Shown: positions 3,621 through 63,312 of the stretch, in pieces
Layout of the letters: each line of letters begins with the position of its first letter
Numbering within the stretch: the stretch's first letter is position 1
DNA from: Adineta ricciae
Lineage: Eukaryota; Rotifera; Eurotatoria; Adinetida; Adinetidae
Assembly (NCBI GenBank): GCA_905250025.1
Contig: CAJNOJ010000195.1
Span: forward strand, 41,720-105,719
DNA length: 64,000 nucleotides
Direction of reading: 5' to 3'
Notes under the pieces: model-generated
Database searches by the model: none
The model's input: only the letters and a program-made list of their open reading frames with translations
What the model was told of the DNA's origin: nothing
Program-made: the position numbers and the translations under genes

Positions 3621-4747
3621 TTAATGATGTTTCTTTGTAACACCATTTTGTTTTGATGATTTATTTGTTGATTGATCATCAGTTGATTGATTGATTTGAT
3701 TTGTTTTAAGTTTTCGACGTTTAACATCATTACTTCTTGTCACATATTCATGAATATAAAAATTTGTAAAAAGAAGTAACATGATTATCATATAAGTACT
3801 CAACATAATTTGACCCCTGGAGAAAAAGAAAGAAAGAAATAAACAAATGATGATGATGATGAACAGATTTGTTATACCATCGTGGATAATCACAACCACG
3901 TAAAAGACCAGTGAACGTATGAGTAAATATAAGTACGAATTGAATCTAAAGAAGGAAAGAAAGAATAAATAAACACATGACGAGAATGATTTTACCAATT
4001 GAAACATGGTGATATATCGTTTCCACCAGAGTTTATCACGTAATGAAGGAATAACAGATAAACCATAATACGCATACATAAATACATGAACAGTTGAATT
4101 TAAAACTGGTCCTAACCATGCTTGTCCACCCTTGAATGAAAATGGAAATGATTTCTATCAATAAAGATGTGAATTGTCTTACGGGAATCCATGTCATTAC
4201 AATCCACCAAATAATTAACATTGTTGAATGATGAAAGACATGAAGAAATGTAATTTGTGTGAATCGTTTTCGAACAACCATAAATATTGTATCCATAAAT
4301 TCAATCGCTTTGGAGAAAAAATAAAACCACAATGCATTGGTTATTTTCATTTCATTTTTATCCGTTGTAACAACCATTCTTTGACAAAAAAGATTATATT
4401 TACGAAGATAAAGACCAACAACAAGCTTTTCGAGAAGAAATACATATGAAAATGACTAAAGAAAGAAAGTTGTGAAGTTGACTTACTTCTTCGACCATAT
4501 AAGCTGAAAGAACGACCAAAGCCATGTTATAAATGAAAAGTATCGATGATGGAATATGAAATGGTTGTCGATGACGCATATAACGTGGACCAATGATGAC
4601 AATTGCCAAATAGATCAAAGCTAATGTTACTGCAGGAACTGGATCACGCCATAATAAAAACCAATCTTTTGTTCGTGGATCAGCATGTTTAAGGGCAAGT
4701 TTATACGATGGAAATTGTTCTTTAAACCATTCATTTAACCAAGTCAT
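3621..4747 (-). CDS. Very-long-chain fatty acid elongase (ELOVL family)
   Basis: This is a 3-ketoacyl-CoA synthase of the ER membrane that condenses malonyl-CoA with long-chain acyl-CoA. The start is at 4747 (MTWLNEWFKEQFPSYKLALK). Exon 1 (4487-4747) ends in YMVEE. Exon 2 carries LYLRKYNLFCQR, the KAIEFMDTIF segment and the catalytic HVFHHS (HxxHH) box. Exon 3 begins GGQAWLGPVLNSTVHVFMYAYYG. Two more exons give CDYPRW joined across a short intron to GQIMLSTYMIIMLL. Several hydrophobic segments fit the seven-helix fold. The C-terminus ends KKHH, a dilysine ER-retrieval signal. The set of motifs is closest to the ELOVL1/4/7 group rather than ELOVL3/6, but the exact member cannot be fixed by eye. 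Confidence 0.93.
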
Positions 4748-6757: not shown

Positions 6758-7226
6758 ATTTTCCTGTTTAGAAAAAAAAACGACGAGACGTTTAGCTGCC
6801 GACGAGCGTTTTTTTCTTCTTCTGTGGTCGTGTCATCAGTGCAGGGGTATTTGGAGAAAGTAGCACAGGCAGGGCGAGGAAAAGAAGAAAATATTTGCTA
6901 TAACTCACGATTGGCTCAACAGATGTCGCTTAAATCAATCGAAGATCTAGAAAAAAACAGATATTTTACGAAAATATTCAAGAAAACACGAATCGTTTTG
7001 ATATTAATCTAATTGTGAGTAAAAATATTTCATTTTCACTCACAGATATGAACCAATCATATTGTTGGTCGAATCTTTCTCTCTTTCATCAATCATATAT
7101 GACACTAAATCCATTTCTTAGCAAAACAAAATATTAACCAAAACCTACCTAAACTCAATGAATCATTGACCTTGTGTTCAATCAAATGTAACATTTCATG
7201 TGGATTTAGATTTCAATCTACTAGGA
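6758..7226. other. Divergent promoter region between DNTTIP1 and the PssA-like gene
   Basis: Both neighbouring genes point away from this stretch. It is AT-rich with no recognisable coding exon. A 5' untranslated exon of the PssA-like gene may lie here, because a possible splice acceptor (ctactag) sits directly before its first ATG. Confidence 0.4.
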
Positions 7227-7841
7227 ATGTCGAACACAACCGAAACTGAATTCAGATCAACATCGAATAGTGTTTATTTGAAACTAGCGGATGATTACGC
7301 AAATAAAATACGTCGTTCTATACCTAACGCATTAACACTGGGAAATTTGGCTTGTGGTCTGTTTTCATTAATCATGACCATGAATGGTCTTCATCGTTTT
7401 GCAGCTTTATTTGTCTTTCTTGCTGCTGTATTTGATTTTTTTGACGGACGTGTTGCACGAAAGTTGGGATACGCATCGCCAATTGGTGCAGAATTAGATT
7501 CACTAGCCGACGTTGTTTCATTCGGAGTTGCACCAACGATTTTGGCTTATTCGATTTCACAATGGTCATTTCTGATGATTATCGCATTTTTCAGCTTTCC
7601 GTACGTCGTTTTCTCACTTTTTGTTATTGCAATTGATTTCCTCTTGTTTTTCAGTCTTGCTGGTGCTTGGCGGTTAGCTCGATTCAATATTCATCCGACT
7701 ACAGGACATTTCGTTGGTCTTCCAATTCCAGCTGCTGGTCTAAGTGTCGCATTCTTAGCGTTATTTTCGTATGTTTCACCATTAATAATGATTGCCTTAG
7801 CAGGATTTATGGTTTCGAAAGTTGACGTACCAAAACTATGA
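7227..7841 (+). CDS. pssA: CDP-diacylglycerol-serine O-phosphatidyltransferase (PssA/CHO1 type)
   Basis: This enzyme makes phosphatidylserine from CDP-diacylglycerol and L-serine in a membrane. The CDP-alcohol phosphotransferase signature is complete: DG-RV-AR, eight residues, G, three, D, three, D (about residues 76-98). It is followed by VVSFGVAP and later RLARFNI and FVGLPIP, which mark the serine-specific branch. The first ATG in frame is 7227 (MSNTTETEF); an in-frame GTG at 7200 is not needed. A 54-nt intron (7601-7654, gtacgt...ttttcag) joins FFSFP to LAGAWRL. Without it the protein is about 186 aa, close to the short bacterial enzymes (B. subtilis about 177) and much shorter than yeast Cho1. 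Animals normally make PS by base exchange (PTDSS1/2), so a transferred origin is likely. The intron shows the gene is settled in a eukaryotic chromosome. Confidence 0.88.
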   Translation: MSNTTETEFRSTSNSVYLKLADDYANKIRRSIPNALTLGNLACGLFSLIMTMNGLHRFAALFVFLAAVFDFFDGRVARKLGYASPIGAELDSLADVVSFGVAPTILAYSISQWSFLMIIAFFSFPYVVFSLFVIAIDFLLFFSLAGAWRLARFNIHPTTGHFVGLPIPAAGLSVAFLALFSYVSPLIMIALAGFMVSKVDVPKL

Positions 7842-38960: not shown

Positions 38961-41154
38961 CTAGTTGATTTCTTGAAGATTTTGATCGTAATTATCAATC
39001 ACATCAGTCAGTGCTGTACTATACGATGCTGGAAAGTGATCCAACCACATTCTCGGATGAACAATCAATTGAGAAAATTGATCATATGAACTTAGACACG
39101 CACGATAGGAGATTTTACGTGAAAATAATCCGACACGATTCGTTGAATACAAATGAATAATCGTTCCTGGCATAACTAAATGTTGTCGGTCACCAGAACG
39201 ACGAGAAAGAACAAGTTGTGAAACAGCGGGGTCAGGATTTATCGTCACTGTTGTCGTTGTAGGAGATAATAACGAATCATCACTTAGTGTTTGTGTACGA
39301 CCACTCATGGAATGAAATGCTTGTCTTCGTTTGCTCAATGTCTGAACAAGTGTCATGGTCAACACGCTCATTTTATTTCGATTACATTTATCCAACGCAT
39401 CAATAATCCGATCACGTAAATGTTCTAACGAACGTATTGACGCACGTCCAATCATATCGACATCTACAACGTACGAATAGATAAAATCCCGAGTTGCAGA
39501 TGCTAAGTTTTCCGATAAAACTGAGCCGGGCATAGCGATACCATAACAAATTAAATGAGGATAAGTTGACTTGAATAAAATTGAAAGTATAGCAGCGATA
39601 CCAGCACCAAGGGAATAACCACAAATAACTAATTTGTAATCAGGATATTTGAGAAATATATCGATTAAACGTGTTGAGATATCGTCACGAATGTAATTAG
39701 CTGCTGTATGCATACCTACCAACAATGGAAAATAAAGATTTGAAAGATTTTCTCAGAAATCAAAGTTTACCGCTGTGACAATGTCCACTGCCGAATAATT
39801 CAGTGTTCAAAGTATCTTCTACTGCATTAATATCAGTTAAAATATCTGTCGCACTCAGTGTTCCACGAATAGAAACAATGATTGTCTTTTTCTCATTATC
39901 AGCTGCGATGTAAAACGGAGCTAAAGCAACAAAAAGACATTGAAATCTTTCAAAAAGGAGATCTCATCCTACCTCGATGAAGTGCACCAAGGAAATTTGC
40001 ATATAGAATAACAGGTTTTTGTTTCCGTAAAAGATATGTCAATGTACTAAACTGACTTCCACATGGGTCATTTAGACTATCTTGATTTTGACAACAAAGT
40101 GTACAACATCCACACCATGAACAACAAAATCCGATTGTTCTATGTAAATAGGAAAAAAAACCTTTACTGAATTTCTCTGAAATATCCGGCCTTTTATACT
40201 TGAATCGCATGGCAAAGAGAATTCGTGGGAGAAATGTTAATCGATATTGATAGGCCAGAGAAAACCTCGAAAGTAAAAAAAAGATCAATTTAGACAAACC
40301 GAACTTCGAAAACAGGAAAATTTACCATCCAAAAGCAGATTGTGCATAAGAATTATAATAAAGACCTTGTTGAAGTAGTTCTAAAGGTACTGATCGTTCA
40401 ATATCAATTGATCGTTCTTCCAGAACATCTTCTTGTTGTAGAAGTATCAAACCAGCTGCAACATCACTCGGAACCAGATCGAATCTTTCATCGTCAATCA
40501 AATATCTCAATGTCTTAACAATATTCTTTATATCCGACGATTGTCCTCCTATTCACAAAGTAAAAGAATTTCAACGAAATCATTTTGTCGATGAATTTCC
40601 TTACCGTAACCTCTTCCACAACAAAAAATTAATTTGATCCGCATCTCCCATTTTTTCTCCGGACTGACTACACCACTTAGATCAATAAAGAATGCTAAGA
40701 TGATAAACAGAGCAAACGCGACTGTCCAACTCAATGCGATCGACGTAAGAATCGTAGCACGTAAAATCAACGCACATATTTGAAATACTCGTACGATAAT
40801 GACCAGTCCCAAAATATTTATACTAATATCAATTAATACCAGAAGTAAACGAATGTAAATCATCAATGGTATATGACGACGTGGTCGAGTATTTTTCACC
40901 GGTGTTCCTCGAAGACTCGTCAGCAACATAACCGAAGCCAGAATGGTTATTGCTGCATAAACACTTAAAAGTGGATAAAAATATCCAATGTAGAATGACG
41001 ATGGACATGTGGAATCAGGTGATTCATCTTTGAGACGAAAGACAATGAACGTGGCGAGTAGTGGAAGACGAAGTGCAATGTCAATGACACATGGAATTGT
41101 TAAATCATCAGATGAGAAATTAAAACGACGACCAAATAGACGTATGCCGGGCAT
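38961..41154 (-). CDS. DAGLB: Sn1-specific diacylglycerol lipase (DAGL-beta-like)
   Basis: Releases 2-acylglycerol (including 2-AG) from diacylglycerol at the plasma membrane. The start at 41154 gives MPGIRLFGRRFNFSSDDLTI, matching MPGIVVFRRRWSVGSDDLVL of the human enzymes. Four N-terminal hydrophobic helices follow, then DLVPSDVAAGLILLQQ (human DIVPSDIIAGLVLLRQ). A Cys-rich insert (WCGCCTLCC) comes next, then IVSIRGTLSATDILTD and the nucleophile motif VICGYSLGAG (GxSxG; human has H where this has Y). The acid sits in VVDVDMIGRASI and the catalytic His in WLDHFP near the C-terminus. The protein ends soon after (YDQNLQEIN), without the long DAGL-alpha tail, so the beta type fits better. The full catalytic triad is present. 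Confidence 0.92.
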
Positions 41155-41584
41155 TGCGAGAAATATTCTAAAGTGAGTGCAATTTGATATGTTGTCGGTA
41201 TGATAAATATCAACAGAAAAGAAAGAGAATATGTTATTCATCAGAATGATATATTTTTTTTTTCGTTCTCTTGCATATATTCTAGAGAAAACAAACACAC
41301 GGGATGAGTTTTTTTCCTACTTACATCACTTAAAATTTGAAAAGTAAATCATCTAAAAATAAGTCGAGACAATCATTGTGAGTGTAGTTAGGTGAATCAA
41401 TGCACGTGAATCAACTGTTCTTTGCCTCGTGTGACACCCAAACATTCTCTTTCAAAGAATATCGAATACTTTCAATAAATATCTCATATTTATTATGGAA
41501 AATATAAACTAAATATATACATGTATAGACAAGACAAAACATTTTCTGCAACTGAGATTCATCGAAAGAAGAACTCAGTTGGAT
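41155..41584. other. Spacer upstream of DAG lipase
   Basis: 430 bp between two minus-strand genes. It should hold the DAGL promoter and the 3' UTR of the fusion gene to its right. Nothing else is visible. Confidence 0.4.
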
Positions 41585-43481
41585 TTAATTGACTTTTTCT
41601 AAATGTTCCATATCATCCGCTTGAATATGCGAAAACAATTCTTTGCGCAATTGTGTACTCGAAACACCGTTTGTATAAGGCAAGAATTTGATTGGCATTA
41701 ATTCTTCCACGACATGTCGAGATGGAAAATCTGCCATATCATCACCTCGGATATAGACTGCCGTTTCATTTTCTCGTAAATGTACAACACATTTGACGAA
41801 ATTCGACGGATCAGTACCTGCGACACAATAGACTTCATCTGCATATCGTTTCACATTCAACATTCGTGTTTCCGTTCCATCGACAGGGACACGTTTCTTT
41901 AATTTATGAATACTTCGACTGTCATGAACACCAACAATAACTTGACGACCATATTGTCTCATACGTTGAAGAAGAAGACGATGTCCTTCGTGAAATAAAT
42001 CAAAGCAACCGACAGTATAAACTTTATCTGCACGACCATCGATCCAAATACTTGGTAAAGATGCACTACGTTGAAACGAATGTAATGGATCATCGGCATT
42101 GTCAGATGAAGATGTAGAATGGGAATCATCTTCAGAATCGATTGTTTCGGCGATCATTGGATTTGTCATGTTTGCGGAAAATATTGGTGGAGTTTGATCC
42201 TTTGTATGTTTACTTTTTTCATTCTAAAATAACGAAGATTTGTACTTTTTTTCTTATCCCGATCGCTATGATTGTTAACATACTTCTCGTCGTGATGAAT
42301 CCAAAGTCATTGCTCGTTGACGTGTATTTGCATCATTGTTTGAAATCGATGTATTAATAACTGCAATGGATTTTTGAACAGGTATTTGAATTTCTTCGGG
42401 TTGGTCTTGGATGGTCACATTCTTCTTTTCTTTTCTCGACTCTCGTGCTTGTAATTTCTTCGTTAAAGAAATATAAGCTAATCGAATGGTCAATGCCAAG
42501 CAAACAACGCCGAAGATTCCAGCTGAAAAATAAGAGCAAAATCTTCAATTAGACACAGAACTTAACTGAATAATTTCACTTACTCCAATGTTCGAATGGT
42601 GTAGCGTGACCAATGGATAAACATAAAAATGCTAATCCTATTGATTCAAATTTTTCCTTTAACTTTCCTTCCATCACAGCTGCTGTCGAATTCTTATTTG
42701 TTGTTCTAGAAAAATCCAAAATACAACTAATGTCCAATGAATTCAACTGAAATCACATACTTATTTCCAAGAAGAGCAGCATGAAAGTAATCTTGAACAC
42801 GTACAACTCCAATTGCTGTTTCCAATCCAATGACTGTATAGCAAAGAAGTACAAATGCAATTGCCATTAGAGTTGATGTTTGATCGAAATGGGTTTCTTG
42901 AATAATTGTCCATAGACAAAAGACATTGACAATTTTGTCACAGAATGCGTCCATAAAACCACCTAACAACGGATCATCAATGTTATCACCGTAGATACGT
43001 TTATGAACTTTAGCAACAATGCCGTCGATATGATCAAGAAAATCATGAAATAGTATCAATGAACAAGCCAAAGTTGGATAATTACATCTAAATAAAAAAC
43101 GAATTTCATCATAGAATTTCAATGAAACTTCGAACTTACTTCAAACACCAAGCAATTGGGATAATAAGAAGTGTTCGTGAATAAGTAACAACATTTGCAT
43201 TGAATACGGTGAAACTTTTGTTTCCAATTCGAATAACACGTGGAATACGAGACACATAAGGCGACAAATACGCTTGTAACGGTGTGTACATATATAAATC
43301 GTACCAAATAACCAAATGAAACATAATAGATGTGGTAACACGGCTGACAGTTATCAAAAGGTTGATAAACCATTGAATTACGGATAATAATCCTTGAAAG
43401 CCTAAAAGAAAGACATGACAATTTTCATACTACAACTTTAAAACACATACGAAAGTGAATATTTGAAGTTCCAATAGTCAT
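41585..43481 (-). CDS. Fusion of a CDP-alcohol phosphotransferase (ceramide-phosphoethanolamine-synthase-like) and a cytidylyltransferase
   Basis: About 540 aa from ATG 43481 (MTIGTSNIHF). Residues 1-250 are a multi-helix membrane domain. It contains FHDFLDHIDGIVAKVHKR and then DDPLLGGFMDAFCDKI, that is D-x2-DG-x2-A-(K for R)...G-x3-D-x3-D, the CDP-alcohol phosphotransferase motif in the form I associate with insect ceramide phosphoethanolamine synthase. A basic linker follows (KKLQARESRKEKK). The C-terminal 170 residues are a nucleotidyltransferase: KVYTVGCFDLFHEGHRLLLQ (HxGH), IVGVHDSRSIHKLKK, IRGDDMADF and YTNGVSSTQLRKEL. All introns have matching phases; the key joint (SSRRE to NEKSKH across 42203-42287) is phase 0 with good splice sites. 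Such a protein could make CDP-ethanolamine (or a related CDP-alcohol) and pass it to ceramide or another lipid. Substrates are inferred from the family only. Confidence 0.8.
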
Positions 43482-61440: not shown

Positions 61441-62578
61441 TTACTCAATATTAGTACGAACAAACAGTGCAGCCATCATTCCATAATAAGTAGGACAAGC
61501 AGAGATGAAATCTGTTAACAACCAATCTGCTGATGAATTTGCTTTTCCAGAAGAATCTGCAACTCGGTTTTGAATTGTTTGATTTTCTAAGACGCCCTGC
61601 AGTGTCAATGAACCAACATAACCACAACTTAGTGCAAATCTTTCAATCGGCCCTGCTTCATCAACGATTAGTTTCTTATCCAAAGAATATAAGTCATTAT
61701 TTGAATTCGAACGTCTTCCAGTCATCCAGTCCTCGACAATTTTATCAAATGATCTCGCTTCTTCAGTGCCAGCTTGTGGAAATTTCGAAAAGCATGAAGG
61801 ATCAGGTTGATAGATAGTTGCCAATTGAGGAGACCATGCATGAGTATGAGCTTGGTCACCACTGATAAGTAAGAGTATTCGATGTGATGATTGATCACAC
61901 CATGATCGGAGTAAACGACCGAATTCTACTAGTTTGGAACGTTGTTCAACCATAAAATATTCTCGTTCTTCCACTAAATCAAAATTTCTATAATCACAAT
62001 GAACACTTTCCTAAATGATATTTCAAATTACTTGTTGAACCTTTTGCAGGTTGTGCAATGATAACAACTTTCGGTGATGATGGAACAGATATTTGTTTCA
62101 ACGATGTTGTCGTTCCATTGGCATTCGAAACTATCTGATGTAGAGCAAAATAAAGCGGCACAACTTCACCCCATCTTAATGGTGTACTCAGTCCACCAAA
62201 TGATAGCATTCCTTCAACTTTTACCATGTGTTGTTTTAAATAAGAAAATAGATGTTGAGATGCTTCACCATCAAGATGAACATTAACACTGAAGTCATTC
62301 CACTGATCATTCCATTCAGCATTGCCACTAGCCGTACAGGATGAAGTACCTGGTTGGTAAATATTCAAACTTTGGTGAAGATTAATTCCATGCGGGGTTA
62401 AAAGAATGATTAGATCTGGATTTAATTGTGCTATCTTTTCACTGATTCGAGTGCAAGCTCTATGAAGATCATCGGCGCCATGTGGAAGATCTTCTCGATT
62501 AGGATCTAAAGTCATGGTACCATGAGGAAGATAAGCAATTCCGACTAAGCCATGATCAGTGTTCACTAAGTTTTCCAT
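61441..62578 (-). CDS. LigB-superfamily protein (class III extradiol dioxygenase, subunit-B type)
   Basis: Two exons (62032-62578 and 61441-61973) give 359 aa, joined in phase 1 at KGST/MEEREY. The start is MENLVNTDHGLVGIAYLPHG. Key features of the superfamily are an early His in AYLPHGTMTLDP, the helix LHRACTRISEKIAQLNPDLI followed by ILLTPHGI, a later LLLISGDQAHTHAW, and a C-terminal FALSCGYVGSLTLQGVL. The three His/Glu iron ligands of class III dioxygenases map to such positions, but I cannot prove that metal binding is kept. Members open aromatic rings or act in small-molecule metabolism, and related proteins occur in MEMO/AMMECR1-linked bacterial systems. This type is uncommon in animals. 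A single phase-1 intron and normal base composition show it is an integrated nuclear gene. Confidence 0.75.
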
Positions 62579-63312
62579 GTTGTCAAATATTCGAAAGTAG
62601 AAAAAAAAAGTTTTGATTTTGCGTTTCAATTTGATTCGTGTAAACACATCACCGATGATTTTTCTCGTTCTTTACAACATCGATAGAAAGGTGACAAACA
62701 GATGTCATACACTGATATATTCCTTCGCAAAACACAGAGCATTCGAACAAGCGAATAGCTTCAACCAAAGTTTTGTTTCGTAAACAGTTAAATATATATA
62801 CTTCTCAGTTATAACCAATTAATTCCGATCGTTTGACTTCTCTGATACATTACTGATTTTCTGGCACTTCATGTGATACATTTGGTTCATGTGTTCACAT
62901 CGATTATTTTGTGTGAAATTTTCATCTTAATCGAACCTCAATATGAGAAAGAAAAGAAACAAGACGAATTCATTCAATTGCGTGATTTCAAGCTACGTAG
63001 TTCTTTCAGTCACACGTCCGTTTTTGGTAAAAAGCCAATAACGTATTTCCCTATATCGGCAACTATTGTAGATATCTCAACGGCGGACACAAAAAGCAGG
63101 AAACTACCGACATAACCTCGTATGCTCACTGTATATATTTGGAAAACTATTCAAAACTTGATTTGAAATGCATTGTTATGATCACAGATTTTGATTTGAT
63201 AAAATAACGTCTCATATTTGTTCGCAGCTTATTCATATGGACAAGACACAAATATTGACTTCATTAGTCGTTAGCAAAACTGCGTGCCACCTTTTGCTTT
63301 CTTCTCTTTTCA
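62579..63312. other. Region upstream of the LigB-like gene
   Basis: About 730 bp. A plus-strand open frame at 62873-63115 begins with a hydrophobic stretch (MIHLVHVFTSIILCEIFILI) that could be a signal peptide of the gene suspected to the right. I cannot connect it by splicing with confidence. Confidence 0.3.

Follow-up and report, generated by a model that had tools for sequence, protein, structure and literature searches.

Can a single polypeptide both activate a lipid headgroup and hand it on to a lipid, tasks that in most cases fall to different proteins? The question is raised by a gene of the rotifer Adineta ricciae (assembly GCA_905250025.1), which lies in a stretch of 64,000 nucleotides of contig CAJNOJ010000195.1 (contig positions 41,720 to 105,719, forward strand; hereafter the window, from whose first letter positions are counted). 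The gene joins a CDP-alcohol phosphotransferase domain to a cytidylyltransferase-like domain (CDP, cytidine diphosphate). At a likelihood that we put only slightly short of even, it encodes a bifunctional membrane enzyme: one part would make CDP-ethanolamine, or its aminoethylphosphonate counterpart, and the other would transfer the headgroup to ceramide.

Two enzyme domains in one reading frame

The gene occupies the minus strand from its first base at 43481 to its last at 41585, where six exons splice into one 539-amino-acid frame (1620 nt, that is, 539 codons and a TAA stop). The coordinates, strand, motifs and reading frame given in an earlier note, made from the sequence alone, were all recovered. 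The five introns are 49, 52, 55, 61 and 60 bp long, and every one has a GTATGT or GTAAGT donor and a pyrimidine-rich AG acceptor. In the same protein, Pfam places a CDP-alcohol phosphotransferase domain at the N-terminus (PF01066; E-value 1.7e-5, 25.7 bits against a gathering cut-off of 22) and an HxGH nucleotidyltransferase domain at the C-terminus (PF01467; E-value 3.1e-14, 53.8 bits against a cut-off of 21). The 639 nt of the C-terminal half contain no intron, compared with four in the preceding 981 nt, which is a weak hint that this half was acquired later.

The joint between the two halves is intron 5. That all exon joints stay in frame and that this critical one is in phase 0, as the note had held, proved correct, the intron running exactly from 42283 to 42224. 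If it is left unspliced, a stop follows after two codons. Dinucleotide shuffling of the 401-nt joint region gave a comparable donor and acceptor pair in 22 of 5000 shuffles, and in 8 of 5000 when the intron length also had to be divisible by three; the criterion was a GTATGT or GTAAGT donor with a pyrimidine-rich AG 45–70 bp downstream, its acceptor and length limits having been picked after the introns were seen. Of the 83 such donors in the unshuffled window, 26 are followed by a matching acceptor. An agnostic scan for short introns that join frames recovered four of the gene's five introns and placed the joint among 14 candidates on the minus strand, 12 of them 49–61 bp long. Codon scores in the predicted frame were +0.33 for the tail of exon 5 and +0.49 for the linker in exon 6, against a non-coding 99th percentile of −0.02 (5000 non-coding draws; the codon model was trained on 3286 codons from open reading frames (ORFs) of the window, several of them without a Pfam match, against stretches assumed to be non-coding). 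The joint is improbable by chance, and coding signal lies on both of its sides. An assembly join as the origin of the fusion was rejected: the sequence runs unbroken through the joint, with no N.

The same region could also hold two co-transcribed genes, a phosphotransferase whose last residues before the stop are RREVC, and a nucleotidyltransferase beginning with Met346 of the model (~42169), separated by spliced-leader trans-splicing at acceptor 42223. Rotifers employ such trans-splicing (PMC3795323, in the part available), and a trans-splice acceptor would resemble the one at 42224. The stop met on read-through of the intron suits two genes, as does an in-frame ATG 18 codons into exon 6; those 18 codons look coding in the fusion frame, their score of +0.29 being marginal against a 99th percentile of +0.27. 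Trans-splicing requires no donor, yet the consensus GTATGT is present, in frame at 42283, and the 60-bp spacing matches the gene's other introns; both speak for an ordinary intron. Between 43481 and 41300 on the minus strand, AATAAA occurs at 41494 only, after the stop, and ATTAAA at 41903, inside a coding exon, and 41589, at the stop; neither signal lies between exon 5 and the nucleotidyltransferase domain, where a two-gene arrangement has only the weak variant AGTAAA at 42214, just beyond the joint. The known rotifer spliced leader was not found in the window, which says little. We regard two genes as very unlikely. One gene joining a CDP-alcohol phosphotransferase to a cytidylyltransferase-like domain, the central claim of the note, is borne out by the single frame, the two Pfam domains above cut-off and the consensus intron 5; at the level of gene structure the proposed union of activation and transfer in one chain is well supported, and both halves would be transcribed as one mRNA.

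The C-terminal domain is predicted to fold as a cytidylyltransferase

The HxGH motif of the C-terminal domain is intact (HEGH). An AlphaFold model of the exon 6 domain, built with eight sequences, has a Rossmann-like fold, with block means of 81–97 over exon 6 residues 61–200 and below 50 over most of the linker, which is predicted to be disordered. When this model was compared with solved structures using Foldseek, the first rank went to the Bacillus subtilis glycerol-3-phosphate cytidylyltransferase (GCT; 1coz, TMt 0.83), the second to a choline-phosphate cytidylyltransferase (4mvd_B), the third to the phosphonate cytidylyltransferase (CyTase) domain of Fom1 (5x3d, TMt 0.76) and the tenth to human PCYT2 (3elb), pointing to a cytidylyltransferase fold. 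A sequence search of the Protein Data Bank (PDB) listed PCYT2, the ethanolamine-phosphate cytidylyltransferase, first by whole-sequence E-value (2.7e-13, the sum of two stretches of 29.8 and 21.9 bits), 1coz as the best single stretch (42.5 bits) and the Fom1 CyTase domain as a weak match (E-value 7.4e-4); the profile search of the PDB also returned designed TIM barrels, which we took as noise.

Membership of the best-matching families was rejected in each case. PCYT2 has two cytidylyltransferase domains, both matched in 3elb, whereas this protein has one PF01467 stretch and a membrane enzyme. TagD/GCT, which supplies the best single stretch and the best fold match, forms a separate clade in the tree described below, and its model TIGR01518 scores 41.7 bits against a cut-off of 165.4. 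HldE/RfaE supplies the best NCBIfam match (TIGR02199), at 45.1 bits against a cut-off of 181.5; its heptose kinase domain is not present here, and its rows fall outside the clade of the window domain.

Cytidine triphosphate (CTP) is the probable nucleotide, judging by the ranked folds and by the domain's fusion partner. Ethanolamine phosphate would be the default headgroup, and 2-aminoethylphosphonate fits too. With the latter, the C-terminal domain would make cytidine monophosphate (CMP)-aminoethylphosphonate and the membrane domain ceramide aminoethylphosphonate. Marine molluscs and cnidarians are described as having ceramide aminoethylphosphonate as their main sphingolipid (PMC9174665, in excerpt), and 23.6% of the prokaryotic phosphoenolpyruvate (PEP) mutases inventoried in the available part of PMC6697681 are fused to PF01467 domains. 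The Fom1 CyTase domain is both the third-best solved fold and a match by sequence, if a weak one, and the ethanolamine-phosphate cytidylyltransferase is the better of the two by sequence. No PEP mutase was present among the 20 ORFs scanned with Pfam, out of 149 of at least 75 amino acids in the window, and one could lie elsewhere. This phosphonate version of the same design is a leading alternative, which we nevertheless hold to be unlikely.

The membrane domain is CPES-like by motif

The N-terminal half carries the motif D(X)2DG(X)2AK(X)15G(X)3D(X)3D, in which all four catalytic Asp residues are kept. Compared with the PF01066 superfamily motif, D-x2-DG-x2-AR-...-G-x3-D-x3-D, every letter is present except the Arg, which is Lys, as the note had seen in DHIDGIVAK. 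Metal is bound by the first three Asp of this motif, and the fourth probably acts as the base, according to excerpts of PMC4634129. The motif of ceramide phosphoethanolamine synthase (CPES) given in the available part of the fly CPES paper is D(X)2DG(X)2(A/Y)R(X)8-16G(X)3D(X)3D (PMC9550178), and the loop of 15 residues lies inside its range of 8–16, a range that spans short loops too. Because the loop spacing fits and the Arg does not, we label this half CPES-like rather than CPES, an assignment that is supported, not proved, and was made by comparison with the published motif. By its Pfam score it appears to be CDP-alcohol phosphotransferase-like, with the Arg departure. The ceramide phosphoethanolamine route that the note had suggested as possible is favoured by the long loop and disfavoured by the Lys.

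Acceptor specificity is not readable from the present sequence, and the domain could be some other CDP-alcohol phosphotransferase that uses diacylglycerol or a different acceptor and yields a glycerophospholipid. The modest Pfam score would suit this, and the best NCBIfam match is to archaetidylinositol phosphate synthase (30 bits, well short of the 180 required). The CPES-compatible loop argues for ceramide, with the reservation that the range covers short loops as well. A sequence search of solved structures gave no match to this half at E-values up to 1, a result that does not discriminate. Such a glycerophospholipid product seems to us rather improbable. Across 227 Asgard genomes the membrane half had six weak matches at E-values up to 0.001 (best 6.9e-5), as would be expected for a eukaryotic enzyme; close-match patterns found no relatives of it in viral contigs.

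Topology and proposed mechanism

In the favoured reading, the C-terminal domain would use CTP to produce the CDP form of a small phosphorylated alcohol; ethanolamine phosphate is the most likely one, and its product would be CDP-ethanolamine. The N-terminal six-helix core, with one extra N-terminal membrane segment, would then pass the headgroup on to a lipid, with ceramide the most likely acceptor and ceramide phosphoethanolamine the product. The two active sites would lie on the same, probably cytosolic, side of the membrane, tied by a flexible linker of ~120 residues, and this tether could hold the activated headgroup close to the domain that uses it. We infer the two activities, the nucleotide, the substrates, the topology and any channelling from the two domains and their catalytic residues.

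The earlier note had seen a puzzle in the topology: the active site of the insect enzyme faces the Golgi lumen, and a soluble C-terminal cytidylyltransferase would be cytosolic. The CDP-alcohol phosphotransferase fold has six helices around the site, a cavity at the cytosolic boundary and the motif on helices 2 and 3 (PMC4634129, in excerpt), and in CEPT1 the motif is described as sitting at the cytosolic side of these helices. Six crossings should return the C-terminus to the active-site side, and both active sites would therefore share one side in either orientation. Our hydropathy script missed the motif-bearing helix, which was placed from the family fold, and a miscounted helix would overturn this parity argument. 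The loops on the active-site side contain 5, 3 and 6 Lys plus Arg residues and the tail starts TKKLQARESRKEKK, compared with 1, 0 and 0, plus one Lys within a called segment, for the loops on the opposite side; tail and domain together are charge-balanced (38 basic, 40 acidic). By the positive-inside rule this suggests that the shared side is cytosolic, the compartment that contains CTP. With the C-terminus and the active site on one side by virtue of the fold, the puzzle largely dissolves. The Golgi lumen is given as the site of action of fly CPES (PMC9550178, figure legend; Vacaru et al. 2013, title). The orientation predicted here would be inverted relative to it, and this part of the puzzle remains a prediction from charge. 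Where lumenal fly CPES obtains its nucleotide-activated donor is, to our knowledge, unexplained. A natural fusion places synthesis and use of the donor in one chain and on one side of the membrane, making topology and channelling testable with a single protein.

Several observations weigh against this reading. The fusion is read from the genomic DNA of one genome, and both the ceramide acceptor and the headgroup are assigned by analogy. In the membrane half, the Arg of the CPES motif is replaced by Lys. In the nucleotidyltransferase half, the Arg of the RTEGIST (RTxGIST) signature is Tyr, as it is in three Asgard relatives; this Arg matters in cytidylyltransferases and is missing from other PF01467 members too. 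The use of CTP is not assured, because the best NCBIfam match is the HldE-type heptose adenylyltransferase and the one PHROG matched by the domain is HldE-like. We know of no evidence that CTP is available in the Golgi lumen, and if the protein were oriented as fly CPES is, its second half could not function in the way suggested here. The active-site side carries all seven N-glycosylation sequons and the opposite side has none, a placement that would suit a lumenal side if they are used; most of the chain lies on that side anyway.

The two substitutions bear also on a real fusion in which one half is catalytically dead and serves the other as membrane anchor or regulator. The Lys lies in the CDP-binding motif and the Tyr just ahead of GVSST, so that either half could have lost its activity, while the four Asp residues and HxGH are all kept and the coding signal persists in both halves. 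The Tyr need not mean decay, since two of the three Asgard relatives that share it are outside the clade of the window domain. We consider a dead half a fairly remote prospect. The alternatives overlap, and the likelihoods given to them and to the bifunctional ceramide enzyme need not add up to a whole.

Relatives of the nucleotidyltransferase domain

When the genome collection was scanned with close-match patterns, 25 stretches matched and two relatives emerged. The closest relative found was a protein of a Candidatus Helarchaeota metagenome-assembled genome (L004:5977-7356), 40% identical over residues 7–140. This 459-amino-acid ORF has an N-terminal nucleotidyltransferase, the remainder being a phosphatidylserine decarboxylase, and the next gene, a PssA-like CDP-alcohol phosphotransferase, stands beside it at L004:7393-8160. 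In a tree of 23 rows the window domain groups with the Helarchaeota protein (support 100/98); the TagD clade is separate (98/94), and the HldE rows are unresolved but outside.

A profile search found a relative at E-values up to 1e-8 in 3 of the 227 Asgard genomes, and in all three a CDP-alcohol phosphotransferase gene adjoins the nucleotidyltransferase (Pfam identifies the phosphotransferase in two; in the third, which is partly masked, it is recognised by its 69% identity, across 85 residues, to that of the second). The second and third relatives (E-values near 1e-9) are outside the clade of the window domain, and only the first groups with it. In two of these genomes, at L044:3518-4693 and L045:7087-7942, a CDP-alcohol phosphotransferase comes after a stand-alone nucleotidyltransferase, on the same strand and with a gap of 3 bp and 64 bp, respectively; these pairs look like the fusion in two-gene form. 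That domains of this kind are paired with headgroup-lipid enzymes is a recurrent pattern, of which we know just one close case.

Other searches led further afield. In Planctomycetota, 81 of 294 genomes matched a profile at E-values up to 1e-12; an HxGH ORF was present in all 30 loci fetched, and the CDP-alcohol phosphotransferase motif in none of them. We labelled these loci HldE by motif, and of the six scored as tree rows five pass the HldE cut-off, L033 lying below it at 154. Relatives of the C-terminal half occur in 23 plasmid and 4 phage records, all at less than 60% identity. In viral contigs there were seven loci with phage-like HxGH proteins, of which none was close across the whole domain, and further viral searches were empty. 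On a Bacteroides finegoldii plasmid (L055:99-3477), a related nucleotidyltransferase stands beside genes for a class V aminotransferase, a phosphotransferase and a CDP-glycerol glycerophosphotransferase, possibly a headgroup or phosphonate cluster.

Comparison with known enzymes

Archaeal fusions with a cytidylyltransferase-like domain N-terminal to a CDP-alcohol phosphotransferase exist, among them the bifunctional inositol-1-phosphate cytidylyltransferase/DIPP synthase (IPCT/DIPPS) enzymes and Af2299, which like the present protein combine such a domain and a six-helix CDP-alcohol phosphotransferase in one chain, there with both parts on the cytosolic side (PMC4634129, in the part available). 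Unlike these, the protein described here has its nucleotidyltransferase at the C-terminus, of the HxGH type (PF01467), and comes from a spliced, animal-like gene with a CPES-type motif. The cytidylyltransferase-like domain of the archaeal enzymes has the MobA/NTP-transferase fold. Membership of the IPCT/DIPPS family (NF041135) was rejected at 12.9 bits against a cut-off of 580, matched by the membrane part only, with the domain here a C-terminal PF01467. By analogy, the fused protein may work like the IPCT/DIPPS enzymes without belonging to their family. It differs from the archaeal fusions in domain family, domain order, host and the CPES-type motif. If true, the archaeal solution of activation plus transfer was reached here with a different nucleotidyltransferase family and at the opposite end of the chain.

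Insect CPES shares the CDP-alcohol phosphotransferase motif with a long loop (PMC9550178, in excerpt); Lys in place of Arg, the added nucleotidyltransferase and the predicted opposite orientation distinguish our protein from it. In the Helarchaeota fusion, a nucleotidyltransferase of the same subfamily is likewise joined to a headgroup-lipid enzyme with a CDP-alcohol phosphotransferase adjoining, but the fused partner there is the decarboxylase and the nucleotidyltransferase is N-terminal, whereas here it is C-terminal and fused to the phosphotransferase itself. No published description of this fusion was found in the open-access literature searched, and further copies may well exist, so far unnoticed, in other genomes of this group.

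A broader scenario can be drawn, which we consider doubtful though worth stating. An animal lineage would have joined a cytidylyltransferase, either acquired horizontally or deeply divergent, to a phosphotransferase of the CPES type and reversed the orientation of the enzyme. The sphingolipid headgroup, phosphoethanolamine or aminoethylphosphonate, would then be activated and transferred at the cytosolic face by a single tethered protein and not in the Golgi lumen with imported CDP-ethanolamine.

Features of the gene and other genes of the window

The features of the fused gene are listed in Table 1.

Table 1. Features of the fused gene in window coordinates; those of the Pfam spans and of the membrane motif were converted by hand from protein positions
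Feature	Position	Strand	Basis and remarks
Exon 1, ATG to donor	43451..43481	-	Splice model; 31 nt, codon score +0.19, least certain exon
Exon 2, additional N-terminal membrane segment, then beginning of CDP-alcohol phosphotransferase domain	43140..43401	-	Splice model, hydropathy, codon scores
PF01066 match (CDP-OH_P_transf), residues 79-247, introns included	42585..43198	-	Pfam
Exon 3, catalytic motif, then membrane segments	42761..43087	-	Splice model, Pfam, hydropathy, codon scores
Motif DHIDGIVAK-x15-GGFMDAFCD, four Asp, Lys replacing Arg	42937..43035	-	Motif compared with CPES motif of PMC9550178
Exon 4	42584..42705	-	Splice model, codon scores
Exon 5, last membrane segment and ~60-residue tail, basic at its start	42284..42522	-	Splice model, hydropathy, codon scores
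Intron 5, joint of the two halves, 60 bp, GTATGT...TTTTAG, phase 0	42224..42283	-	Splice model, shuffle test, intron scan
Exon 6, linker rich in Ser and Asp, then nucleotidyltransferase domain and TAA stop, without intron	41585..42223	-	Splice model, codon scores, AlphaFold
PF01467 match (CTP_transf_like), residues 396-521	41642..42019	-	Pfam; top folds 1coz, 4mvd, 5x3d
HxGH motif CFDLFHEGH	41981..42007	-	Sequence, PDB match alignment
Second signature GVSSTQL, with PYTN ahead where GCT 1coz has PRTE	41648..41668	-	Sequence, PDB match alignment
AATAAA past the final stop	41489..41494	-	Sole AATAAA on the minus strand from 43481 to 41300

The window holds a second CDP-alcohol phosphotransferase gene, at 7170-7838 on the plus strand, of the bacterial PssA type (PF01066, 71 bits; 41% identity to pssA of Cytobacillus spongiae). 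Since animals make phosphatidylserine by base exchange, this gene may have been acquired horizontally. Exons of an ELO fatty-acid elongase (PF01151) at 3624-4455 on the minus strand represent a further lipid gene. Downstream of the fused gene and on the same strand lies a class 3 lipase domain (PF01764; 38964-39752), and between the two is a hydrophobic ORF without a Pfam match (40552-41316); lipase domain and ORF may together form one diacylglycerol-lipase-like gene. On the minus strand at 61997-62671 there is an ORF resembling LigB-type extradiol dioxygenases (PF02900, 25.7 bits, slightly below the cut-off of 26.3).

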